Shown piece by piece: positions 23,301 to 63,952 of a stretch of 64,000 nucleotides of DNA (the stretch's first letter is position 1; each line of letters starts with the position of its first letter). The position numbers and the translations under genes are program-made. The stretch is from the NCBI RefSeq assembly GCF_035083965.1, contig NC_089725.1:28157925-28221924 (forward strand). The letters run 5' to 3'. The notes below the pieces were generated by a model that was not told the DNA's origin, made no database searches, and saw only the letters and a program-made list of their open reading frames with translations. The stretch is from Branchiostoma lanceolatum (lineage: Eukaryota; Chordata; Leptocardii; Amphioxiformes; Branchiostomatidae).

Positions 23301-26300
23301 CCTCTCCACTGCAAATTCATGACACCACAAATATGTCTCCCTTACAAGTTGTTTGACTACTGTACTACAGAATTGTTTCAATGTGAGTTTAGAATTTAGA
23401 ACACCGCGGAAACATTTTCCTTTACACCTCAGTGTTTTATTAAGGTGCATCACATTTGTTTTTCTTTTTCCAGCCATGTCTTCAACCAACTGATAGTTGA
23501 CAACTTCTCAGCTGAGATTCAAGAGGTAAGGCTTTTCAAGTCATCTTACCGTCCTGCTAATATAAAATTGACAGTTCCTTTTGATGTCAAAATGTCAAAG
23601 ACATAGAAATAGAGGTGGTCTAATTTCAACATCGTAATTGTGCAATATGAAAATCAAGGGTTGTATTAAGTATTGAGTTTGTTTCTTTTGTGGCACAGCT
23701 TGACACCACCCAGTTTGGACTGCCAGACAACACAGCTGACAGTGTTGATCAGGTACGTAAAACTTTAACCTTCCCTTGTCTTGCGTATGGTGCATTCTGT
23801 TCCATAGACATAGGAACAATTCATCACTTTTCCATAAGACAAAGTTGCAGTTGACCTACACACCATTTTTTTGTCCTCAGCATAGAAAATATTTTTATTT
23901 CTATTTTAAGGATTGTTTTGTTGGCATCTAGCTGTAGATATGCAGGTACTTGTCTGTTAGAGGTCCTTATTTGGGTTCACAGGAGCAGAGAGACTCCTAT
24001 GCCTCATGCCTGCTGAACCTGAGAATTCTGGGAAAGTTTCTGGGATTCATCGTCTTCCTGCCTTACCGCAGTCCACAGCTGCTGCCAGAGAGCATGATGG
24101 CCTCAGCACTCTCTGTCAGGAACAAGGTAAGTCCCATTGTCACCAGAGAGATTCTAGAGATTTATGGGACAATTAAGAAGTCAGGTAAACTTCACTGTTG
24201 TACTAACAATTCGAGATGTCAACCCCGTAGACAGGACTATTCTTTTTGATAAGTGTGGTGGGTTCTTTAATGTGCTGGAGGTGTGGCTCTAGTCAAACAT
24301 GTAAAATGACAATCAACAGTTTTTGTGTCCCATCCGTCTCTCATTTTCACCTGTGAGGACATAGGTATAAAGAGCCTTTCCCCAGGGCACAACATTGGGG
24401 CCTGTCAGGGATTCGAAGCCAGAACCCTAAGATCCTTAGTCAACAACTCTAACCACAAGACCATTTGCCACCTAAATGTTTTCCTCCAGGTCTGTCAGCC
24501 GATCGACATTTTGAGGTATCTACAGGACAGCCTAAAGCACTGTCAGGCCGAGCCTGCCAAGGATTCAGACACAAAACCTTTAGATTCAACAACAACCCTA
24601 ACCACAAGACAACCCTAACCAGAAGGCCACTTTGCCACCTACATTTGTAAATGTTTCCCTCCAGGTGTGCCAGCCTATCGACATCCTGAAGCACCTACAG
24701 GACAGCCTGAAGCAGGGTCGTACCATCCTGACTCTCCCGTGGGTGGTGGAGTATCTCAGCATGATGGACCCCATGGCTCCTAAACTGGACTCCTACAAGG
24801 AAATACTCTCCATCCTCTTACACATACACAGGTATTGTTGGAGTCATCCCTTCATTTTACATTGTTGATGACATTATAAAAAGCTTTGCTTAGTTCTACT
24901 TGAAGTTATGCATTTATTTCTCAAACCAGGTTTACACATAATTACCAATAATCACATCAAGACTACGTCTCAAAGATCATAGTTGACTGTTCTTTTTTTT
25001 TTTAAATCATGGTTGGCTGTGATTTTTTTTCTACATGTTTTAATAAAGATGGAGTGTACTCGAAATGGAATTGACCAATCCTGTATGTTTATTTCAGATC
25101 CATCCACCATTCTCCCTCCAGTATCCTCTCCACCAGTCAGCTCCTTGTCCTGCTGATGTTAGGGTGGCTGTTCCAGGTAGGGTAGTTTATTTCAAGACGT
25201 AAACATAAAGATTTCCATTCATGTTTGTCTCTGTGTCACCATTTCTTGGAGGCTGAGGAATGTCCACTCTTTACATTATCTTGAATAATTGATATGTTTC
25301 TGCTCACAGCCTTACAGCAATTAGGCTAAATGCTCAGACTAATTTTGCATGTGATACTTGCTTTTGGCAGCAGTTGTGTGCTATTTGATTTTTAAATGTG
25401 GGTAAATAGAAATTTATTGAAAAAGCTGCTTGCACAGTGTATGATTTCTCACCCTGATTTCTGACCCCCCCAGGTTCCAGCAATCCTGACCAGCATGATA
25501 ACTCTCCATCCTGATGCTGACGAGCTGGTAGTTCCCAACTTCAACAGGAACAGCTGTATCTCTCTGGTAGGTATTTGTATGGTATATAGATAGAGTACTG
25601 AATACTGTTAATTCATGTATTTTCACAGGGACTTAATTCCATAGCAGAAGTAGAAAGTTTGTATGGTGCTTGTGATTGAAACAAGTCTGTAGTACATATA
25701 GAATACAACACGGGGTATTCCGTATCACCCGAGGTACCAGCCCCACCGCGGGTCGGATCGCCCGACGGCCGTAGGCCGGAGGGCGATCCGACCCGCGGTA
25801 GGGCTGGGACCGAGGGTGATGCGGAATACAACGTGTTGTATTTTATTTATGTCATACCTTGGTCATACCCACCCGAGAAAACATACATTTCAATGCGGAA
25901 TGCGCCAGAAGTTGAGGGAGTTTTGTGTCCTTGAACAAGAAACTGTAGCAACATTGATTCCAATCTCCGAATCCGGTATTCGAATTTCCGACGGCCGCGC
26001 AACCGGCGCGCTCGAAATGCGTTCGAAATATTCTATGGAAGCCTGTGTGATAACACTCCCAAACCCTATGTGATCCGGATAGTTATCACACGGTCCGGGA
26101 CACCCGTATCAGGCCCAGGCATGACATAAAGTAAAAGTACATTGAAAATGCATATTTGCTTTGTTACGAGTTCATACGGAAATAAAACAGCCAGCATTTG
26201 AAGATTTACAGTATATGGATGAAGATTACTGTATCTGTTAATTGAAAAACACCTGTCTTCTTTCCAGTCAGACTATTTCTAAATGTTGGTGTTGTTTATC

Positions 26301-63500: not shown

Positions 63501-63952
63501 AGGTGCACAATTCCACACACCTGTACCTGAAGCAGGTGTCAGATGACAAGGTAGGTTACAAGCACAACTCCAAACACCTATACCTGGAACAGATATCAGA
63601 TGACAAGGTAGGTTACAGATGTGCTACTCAACACCTGGAATAGGTGTCGGATATTCATACCTGTACCTGTCCAAAGCCTACCAACAGAGTGTATTGGGAG
63701 CCTTTAACTTCCTTGAGTTACCTTGATTGCAAAAAAACAAACATAAAGTTCTTATCAAAAAGAGTTGACCTTGATATTGAACTGCAAACTCACCTTGGTG
63801 GAGGTATATGTAATTGCAGGAGAGACAAATGCTCGTGTAGCAATATTTTGACTCCCTGTGATTTTCATTTTGTTTTCTCATTCCAGGATGGAAAGGTAAT
63901 TGACTCCATTTGGGTCATCAAGGACCAGCATGGACCCTACAGCCGCACCTGA
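54519..63952 (+). CDS. ACP7: Acid phosphatase type 7 (purple acid phosphatase)
   Basis: Thirteen exons keep frame for 445 residues (human about 438): 54519-54663, 56062-56253, 57140-57325, 57975-58000, 58269-58366, 58753-58815, 59784-59898, 60388-60501, 61523-61577, 62088-62155, 62394-62465, 63040-63177 and 63887-63952. A hydrophobic leader (~17-33) suggests secretion or lysosomal routing. The dinuclear metal ligands of purple acid phosphatases are all visible: D147 in FGDMG, D176 and Y179 in GDFAYD, N211 and H212 in GNHE, H294 in GHRPMYC, and H340 and H342 in [22 protein letters not shown] and the C-terminal [18 protein letters not shown] match the ACP7 group. Tandem arrays copy the donor side of the exons ending at 58815 and 63177. 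In-frame Met codons at 54519 and 54531 are both possible starts. Confidence 0.95.
54819..54907. mobile_element. Foldback element with TAGCCTGG ends, copy 3, perfect 34-bp arms
   Basis: Arms 54819-54852 and 54874-54907 are exact reverse complements, with a 21-bp loop. The ends read CTAGCCTGGAATCC and GGATTCCAGGCTAG. The perfect match implies a recent insertion or conversion. It lies in ACP7 intron 1. Confidence 0.9.
56503..56690. repeat. AAAACTGCCCAA-type dispersed repeat, copy 2
   Basis: AAAACTGCCCAAGAAGACCA and ATCTGGTCTATGTGGACAGG match 27030-27235, here in an ACP7 intron. Confidence 0.65.
57640..57785. repeat. GCAAATTCATGAC-type dispersed repeat, copy 4
   Basis: GTGGCAACCTCAGTCCACTA and TGCAGAATTGTTTCAACCGC match the other family members, in an ACP7 intron. 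Confidence 0.55.
58595..58697. mobile_element. Foldback element with TAGCCTGG ends, copy 4
   Basis: TTAGCCTGGAAATTAAG on the left and GAATTCCAGGCTAA on the right are inverted ends of a ~100-bp element about 55 bp upstream of the ACP7 exon at 58753. Confidence 0.75.
58795..59500 (+). repeat. Five-unit array copying tail and donor of ACP7 exon 58753-58815
   Basis: The real junction is GCAGAGTCTGTTTTACAG then GTAAGACCAG. Copies of the exon tail with the following intron lie near 58978, 59124, 59305 and 59462, for example ACAGAATCTGTGTTACAG. Each is followed by CTTGGTACTGAATT-type sequence. In every copy the GT after the exon tail is changed (ACAGG, ATAGG, ATAGC) or displaced. Confidence 0.85.
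61155..61250. repeat. (GGTT)n microsatellite
   Basis: About 24 uninterrupted GGTT units in the ACP7 intron before the exon at 61523. Confidence 0.98.
61296..61368. mobile_element. Foldback element with TAGCCTGG ends, copy 5
   Basis: TTAGCCTGGTATCCAAACCT is inverted, with some mismatch, as AGGTTTGGATACTTGTGGGG CTA. It is a short copy in an ACP7 intron next to the GGTT run. Confidence 0.65.
61655..61800. repeat. Dispersed repeat with GGTTAGACATCCAGG head
   Basis: GGTTAGACATCCAGGTA and CAACTGGATAAAA match the segment at about 12248-12310. It continues as GGAGATTTATTTCCGGACGT and CTCTTCTTCAGCGTCAC. A weaker ACTGGATAAATCTTTCAAAC relative lies near 30703. The type of element is not identified. 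Confidence 0.55.
63130..63645 (+). repeat. Array copying tail and donor of ACP7 exon 63040-63177
   Basis: After the true exon end (CTGGAGCAGGTGTCAGATGA, then CAAG and GTAGG), copies follow at about 63188, 63249, 63308, 63505 and 63563. The unit is about 60 bp and keeps both the VSDDK-coding tail and the CAAGGTAGGTTA donor almost intact. A dispersed repeat (63378-63450) interrupts the array. Confidence 0.93.

Follow-up and report, generated by a model that had tools for sequence, protein, structure and literature searches.

Tandem arrays across splice junctions in three genes of the amphioxus Branchiostoma lanceolatum

Why do short tandem arrays recur at exon edges, and how do the genes that carry them keep to the true splice site when its copies lie close by? 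The question is raised by a 64,000-nt stretch of the Branchiostoma lanceolatum genome (assembly GCF_035083965.1, contig NC_089725.1, positions 28,157,925 to 28,221,924 of the forward strand; hereafter the window), which was singled out because introns of CDAN1, MTHFD1 and ACP7 carry arrays whose unit runs across the splice junction of the adjacent exon. A preliminary description of this DNA had listed six such arrays, four copying an acceptor and two a donor, and had proposed either that exon borders are preferred seeds of duplication or that duplications survive there because splicing skips the extra copies. We find that the six arrays are real and exactly placed and that they are structures of a known kind ('mirages') in a known animal group, here extended to three genes. 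They are likely to be duplications that happened to take in one exon edge, grew in the adjacent intron and are tolerated by splicing.

Arrays across splice junctions

A small gene finder backed by protein evidence supplied the exons, and those judged to be spurious were removed by hand (CDAN1: 25741, 28410 and 31108; MTHFD1: 36156, 36384, 37158 and 42231; ACP7: 63281 and 63536); ACP7 exon 62394-62465, overlooked by the gene finder, was put in, and CDAN1 exon 28207-28344 was cut back to end at 28298. The spliced models aligned without gaps to annotated proteins (CDAN1 to B. belcheri P0121: 1228 aligned columns, 94.3 % identity; MTHFD1 to B. lanceolatum P0241: 715/715 identical; ACP7 to B. lanceolatum P0001: 445 aligned columns, 97.8 % identity), so the exon edges used here have been tested rather than assumed. 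These three genes together hold 116 splice junctions. With the models of SIVA1 and a DNA-alkylation-repair gene, drawn from Pfam matches and splice signals only, the set grew to 131 junctions, of which 66 were acceptors and 65 donors, and GT or AG was in place at every one.

At each junction, the flanking ±45 bp were aligned locally to the 1.2 kb on either side, with at least 10 bp required on each side of the junction, and junctions scoring 15 or more were compared with 200 Markov shuffles of their own flanks. Six of the 131 carried a local direct repeat across the junction that scored above all 200 shuffles (shuffle maxima 15-18), while the remaining 125 did not reach 15, the score from which shuffles were run (Table 1). 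These are exactly the six of the preliminary description, with the same polarities, the copies lying before the acceptors of 24665, 32136, 38687 and 46507 and after the donors of 58815 and 63177. The weakest, 38687, was challenged with 2000 further shuffles. Acceptors and donors did not differ in how often they carried arrays (4/66 versus 2/65, Fisher P 0.68). Two unverified gene models contributed 23 more junctions; the one at 9372 reached a score of 15, its 100 shuffles 14 at most, and was left uncounted.

The repeat periods measured over the six arrays are 59-175 bp, in agreement with the 60-175 bp first described, and the copies hold both the exon and the intron sequence that flank the junction. 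By eye, ~20-53 bp of the unit are exon sequence, which is the smaller part of it in five arrays and the larger part in the 63177 array. Likeness among copies ranges over the arrays from ~70 % to near-identical. The single extra copy in the CDAN1 array is 86 % identical, and the 63177 array has eight copies at a period of 59 according to Tandem Repeats Finder (TRF). In the 32136 array (TRF period 140, score 607), the final two units (31888-32167) are nearly identical, with only a few differing positions, and take in the head of the true exon, indicating that the real exon edge joins young duplications. The 46507 array (TRF period 86) also holds a partial copy at 46349-46371 that lacks the junction and was excluded from the counts. 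The 58815 array has four copies, in which only ~18-20 bp of exon are repeated. Within the CDAN1, 32136 and 58815 arrays, copies have stayed closer to the original in their exon part than in their intron part; the 38687 array, whose right end within the exon was placed by eye, shows the reverse, and the other two arrays no clear difference. In the 38687 array, copies are 71-72 % identical over the whole match, and their exon part alone is 46-57 % alike to the true exon head. The 38687 array is old and weak. In the 32136 and 63177 arrays, the copies nearest the exon are the most like it, which does not hold in every array.

No array shared sequence with another at an E value ≤1e-3 on either strand, as the preliminary description had stated, and this supports a local and independent origin of each. 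A mobile element or introner insertion, for which shared sequence among copies at different loci would be expected, was rejected on the same result. The sole match of an array outside itself is a 72-bp fragment within the 63177 array (~63375-63445), which recurs at 83 % identity at 8286-8357 in an intron of a thrombospondin-repeat gene and is perhaps the remnant of a mobile element.

Table 1. Coordinates of the junction arrays, the genes that carry them and the comparison duplications (positions count from the first letter of the window)
Feature	Position	Strand	Unit, true junction or extent	Junction score (shuffle maximum)	Junction-equivalents in extra copies
CDAN1 acceptor mirage	24420..24732	+	unit ~175 bp; true acceptor 24664/24665 (exon 24665-24831)	45 (18)	decoy acceptor 24489/24490
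MTHFD1 acceptor mirage	31664..32184	+	unit ~140 bp, 3.4 copies; true acceptor 32135/32136 (exon 32136-32288)	66 (15)	decoy exon starts 31697, 31853, 31993
MTHFD1 acceptor mirage, diverged	38296..38717	+	unit ~128 bp; true acceptor 38686/38687 (exon 38687-38794)	25 (18 in 2000 further shuffles)	decoy exon starts 38425, 38552
MTHFD1 acceptor mirage	46128..46540	+	unit ~86-90 bp, mixed with a CATT-rich tract; true acceptor 46506/46507 (exon 46507-46688)	40 (15)	decoy exon starts 46163, 46238, 46329, 46421
ACP7 donor mirage	58796..59510	+	unit ~169 bp; true donor 58815/58816 (exon 58753-58815)	32 (15)	after 58994, 59149, 59320, 59481
ACP7 donor mirage	63112..63648	+	unit ~59 bp; true donor 63177/63178 (exon 63040-63177)	84 (16)	decoy donors after 63236, 63295, 63356, 63491, 63550, 63607
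CDAN1 (codanin-1)	17393..30940	+	29 exons in window; 3' end not found, presumably in N gap		
MTHFD1 (C-1-tetrahydrofolate synthase)	32136..50043	+	18 exons in window; 5' end not found, presumably in N gap		
ACP7 (acid phosphatase type 7)	54519..63952	+	13 exons		
MTHFD1 intronic tandem duplication	37272..37540	+	unit ~126 bp; spans no established exon edge; counted as non-junction		
Comparison tandem duplications off known exon edges, in or near introns	7776-8064, 9652-9792, 15960-16088, 31108-31496, 36968-37080, 37272-37540				

Decoy sites and published mirages

The arrays hold 20 extra copies with an identifiable junction (one, three, two and four for the acceptors and four and six for the donors, in the order of Table 1), and 17 of these retain AG or GT, all three losses falling in the 58815 array. 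On splice scores from consensus weights, 12 of the 20 decoys lie within one unit of their own true site or above it, so site strength alone would not have the power to pick the right copy. The CDAN1 decoy, for example, scored 3.06 against 3.29 for the true site, the 46507 decoys 0.83-5.22 against 3.37, and the 63177 decoys, GT being present in all six, at least as high as their true site. Extension of the exon to the decoy meets an in-frame stop in all 20 cases, the ten at donors being halted by a single stop in each array.

For all six junctions, the peptide expected from direct splicing is present, in a single place, in one or more annotated amphioxus proteins, B. lanceolatum proteins covering four of the six; the sequence of B. 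floridae P0002 departs from the ACP7 exon 6/7 peptide. Four decoy-derived peptides were looked for in 360 proteins, few of them from amphioxus, and none was found. The proposal that the duplications survive because splicing skips the extra copies is consistent with these annotated proteins, some of which are themselves predictions.

Minisatellites over exon-intron boundaries have been named mirages, a term used for amphioxus cases including Adh3 and the globins in PMC3087553. The preliminary description had mentioned such minisatellites from amphioxus Adh, correctly, and both polarities are on record together with a model of intron gain (PMC3087553). Reverse transcription PCR (RT-PCR) suggested that the published mirages are spliced regularly (PMC3087553); PGBD5 was added, and TnC cited, as further amphioxus cases (PMC3902484). 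The window arrays share three features with them. Their unit crosses the boundary of a real exon at 6 of 131 junctions, either exon boundary can be involved (four acceptors and two donors), and the genes are cephalochordate, the top protein matches of the window gene models being from Branchiostoma.

In the Adh3 mirages, the unit likewise lies across an exon-intron boundary, in both B. floridae and B. lanceolatum, and the mRNA is regular (PMC3087553, PMC3902484); however, the units described there measure 10-72 bp, as opposed to 59-175 bp here, and instability in length and in somatic tissue was shown there, whereas the window represents one haplotype. In the same size range are the globin genes BflGb6 and BflGb9, with units of 150-160 bp, one of which copies the 3' end of an intron and the head of the exon and the other the 3' boundary of an exon, the copies in BflGb6 being 81-100 % identical (PMC3087553). 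Those are other genes, and two BflGb6 haplotypes and RT-PCR were examined in that work. Lancelet PGBD5 carries imperfect tandem repeats of 60 bp and 108 bp at 5' and 3' splice sites, and there a gene prediction made an exon from the copies, as our gene finder did at 63281 and 63536; it is a single gene, and its protein prediction is itself uncertain (PMC3902484). Outside amphioxus, a potato gene gained a new intron from a duplication that crossed an intron-exon boundary (PMC4974935). The duplicated segment is similarly placed; however, the potato case produced a new spliced intron, and none is visible in the window arrays.

Published mirages have been reported gene by gene in the articles cited here, and the window adds a local density, 6/131 junctions. 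Literature searches that drew on a collection without most subscription papers listed no title or abstract with a genome-wide count of mirages.

Seeding, origin and persistence of the arrays

The reading we prefer would involve three steps. An initial duplication of 59-175 bp, produced by slippage, unequal exchange or templated repair, may have been seeded at or near random and have happened to include one exon edge. Unequal exchange could then have added copies, and the true exon edge would still be drawn into young duplications. Exons would be recognised as units, and an orphan edge would be ignored. A copy that holds one edge lacks its partner, so the machinery would keep to the site attached to the exon, and messages in which the exon was extended to a decoy would run into a stop codon and be degraded. 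As passengers the arrays are probably neutral, and at times they would provide material from which a new splice site or intron could arise.

Several points weigh against this reading. We infer tolerance and copy growth from annotated proteins and one haplotype, and the annotated proteins are partly predictions; the junction peptides of 24665 and 32136 are covered only by records of other Branchiostoma species or of hybrids, in which the introns concerned may lack the arrays. Stops after exon extension are to be expected in intron sequence anyway. Two pieces of the 63177 array, 63281-63295 and 63536-63607, were read by the gene finder as small in-frame exons without a stop. Passable donors also lie downstream of some decoy acceptors (2.78 at 175 bp in CDAN1; 3.72 at 181 bp from 31992), so the argument from the missing partner is not clean and may be incomplete. 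Copy divergence follows no one pattern, and under some choices junction arrays somewhat exceed the number predicted by random founder placement.

That last point bears on the alternative that exon borders are preferred seeds, where splicing-coupled R-loops, polypyrimidine tracts, nucleosome edges or AGGT microhomology at transcribed junctions would make breakage or slippage more frequent than elsewhere in introns. The comparisons do not agree. In an end-to-end test of ±20 bp at a threshold of 16, 5/131 junctions (38687 was missed) carried a repeat, the share being 7.4 % among 3000 random intron points and 5.3 % among 1500 points inside exons, and with the junction set rotated over the window the 5 observed compare with a mean of 7.4 (P(≥5) 0.85), i.e. 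no excess; both tests are biased against a junction excess because many intronic copies are counted for each array. With the ±45 bp test at a score of 25, duplication was again commoner over all intron points (158/2000) than at junctions (6/131), whereas exclusion of the points inside the six arrays left 46/1844, a reduced figure that is biased towards a junction excess.

The fair comparison is between the arrays and randomly placed founder units rather than raw base counts. We judged fairest a test in which each array was represented by a single founder of its unit length, set down at a random spot, either wholly intronic or across one exon edge. There were 9 arrays in the three genes (8 at a stricter cut) and 12 in seven gene models (10 at the stricter cut). 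Left out were three coding repeats (3108, 12692 and 43332), the row at 1160 (3' of SIVA1) and duplications 0.7-1.2 kb apart (13808, 44144, 45344, 55692 and 56900). Observed were five strong junction arrays, or six in all. Random placement gives an expectation of 2.2-2.5 for the three genes (P 0.035-0.071 for five, 0.006-0.015 for six) and of 2.6-3.1 for the seven models (P 0.075-0.18 and 0.017-0.059, respectively). Two faint intronic arrays, 49668 (4 points) and 61916 (3 points), were at first omitted; once they were restored, expectation rose to 2.8-3.1 among 11 arrays in the three genes (P 0.11-0.17 for five, 0.032-0.055 for six) and to 3.3-3.7 among 14 in the seven models (P 0.22-0.30 and 0.084-0.135, respectively), which weakened the excess and lowered our estimate for preferred seeding a little.

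What remains is an excess of up to about two-fold, which is a hint and not a result, since the number of arrays is small, the pattern itself led to the choice of the window, and the faint arrays sway the outcome either way. The abundance of arrays noted in about 40 kb stands as six arrays and is to be read against the 116 junctions that the three genes contain (6/116; 6/131 over the five models). The claim that exon borders are preferred seeds has not been established, P running from 0.006 to 0.30 with the choices made and rotation giving no excess. We regard preferred seeding as unlikely and correspondingly doubt that amphioxus exon borders are hotspots of tandem duplication, at about two-fold or more above introns per founder position. 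If they were, a few percent of the genome's junctions would carry decoys at any time, steadily feeding new splice sites or introns.

Three other explanations were weighed. Selection could keep the extra sites as decoys or buffers with which splicing or expression is adjusted, and AG or GT does persist in 17/20 copies, even where arrays are only 70-80 % identical; young copies would, however, retain it unselected, the 58815 array has lost GT in three of its four copies, and the annotated proteins examined show no decoy use, making selection very unlikely. The arrays could instead be intermediates of intron gain, in which the copy of the exon part becomes a new exon. Such a model has been put forward for the globin mirages (PMC3087553), the potato gene supplies one completed case (PMC4974935), and two pieces of the 63177 array were read as small in-frame exons. 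Against this, exon extensions to the decoys hit stops, and in the likeness of their own donor and acceptor regions 0/64 introns exceeded the 99th percentile of 4032 mismatched donor/acceptor pairs (best 11, equal to that percentile; maximum 34). We consider this account of the arrays highly improbable, and intron gain is at most an occasional by-product.

An assembly artefact, with divergent haplotypes of a highly polymorphic genome joined head to tail, would fit the near-identical unit pair at 31888-32167, which sits in an array close to a gap of 100 N, and the extreme polymorphism of lancelets (PMC4284660; the text of that article does not contain the word 'minisatellite'). It is exceedingly unlikely nonetheless: three to eight copies with graded divergence to ~70 % cannot be two haplotypes, and the similar pattern in PGBD5 was upheld by re-examined Sanger and new Illumina data, although two assemblies differ in copy number there (PMC3902484).

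If the rate seen in the window held genome-wide, amphioxus would offer a great many natural experiments on the choice of one splice site among several near-identical ones and a standing pool of possible intron-gain intermediates.

Neighbouring genes and other repeats

A run of N at 31500-31599 marks an assembly gap where CDAN1 is expected to end and MTHFD1 to start. Neither the end of CDAN1 (P0121 from ~residue 1256) nor the start of MTHFD1 (~190 residues) was found on the plus strand of the window. P0241, the annotated B. lanceolatum protein that corresponds to MTHFD1, is likewise N-truncated, at 715 residues. Within MTHFD1, the stretch 36156-36227 is a possible alternative exon, present in B. 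floridae hybrid isoforms and, with more sequence, in B. belcheri; its edges carry no junction-spanning repeat (score 0 in the ±45 bp test). A seventh mirage, considered at the donor of a B. belcheri-like exon at 37281, was unsupported (junction-spanning score 0).

Further genes in the window are SIVA1 (minus strand), the thrombospondin-repeat gene (plus), a WD40 gene (minus), whose F-box label is our own reading, and the DNA-alkylation-repair gene (minus), whose protein, used in a plasmid search, led only to its own family. A leucine-rich repeat (LRR) gene at 41774-44290 is nested in an MTHFD1 intron and contains a 105-bp coding tandem repeat at 43352-43575; its 3' end appears to be duplicated ~1.2 kb downstream (44144-44748 and 45344-45664). 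Immunoglobulin matches in the thrombospondin-repeat and LRR genes fall under the Pfam cut-offs. A 21-bp coding repeat in SIVA1 (3162-3428) gives rise to NGVTNGA-like runs, and an ACP7 intron holds a perfect microsatellite of 24 GGTT units at 61156-61251.

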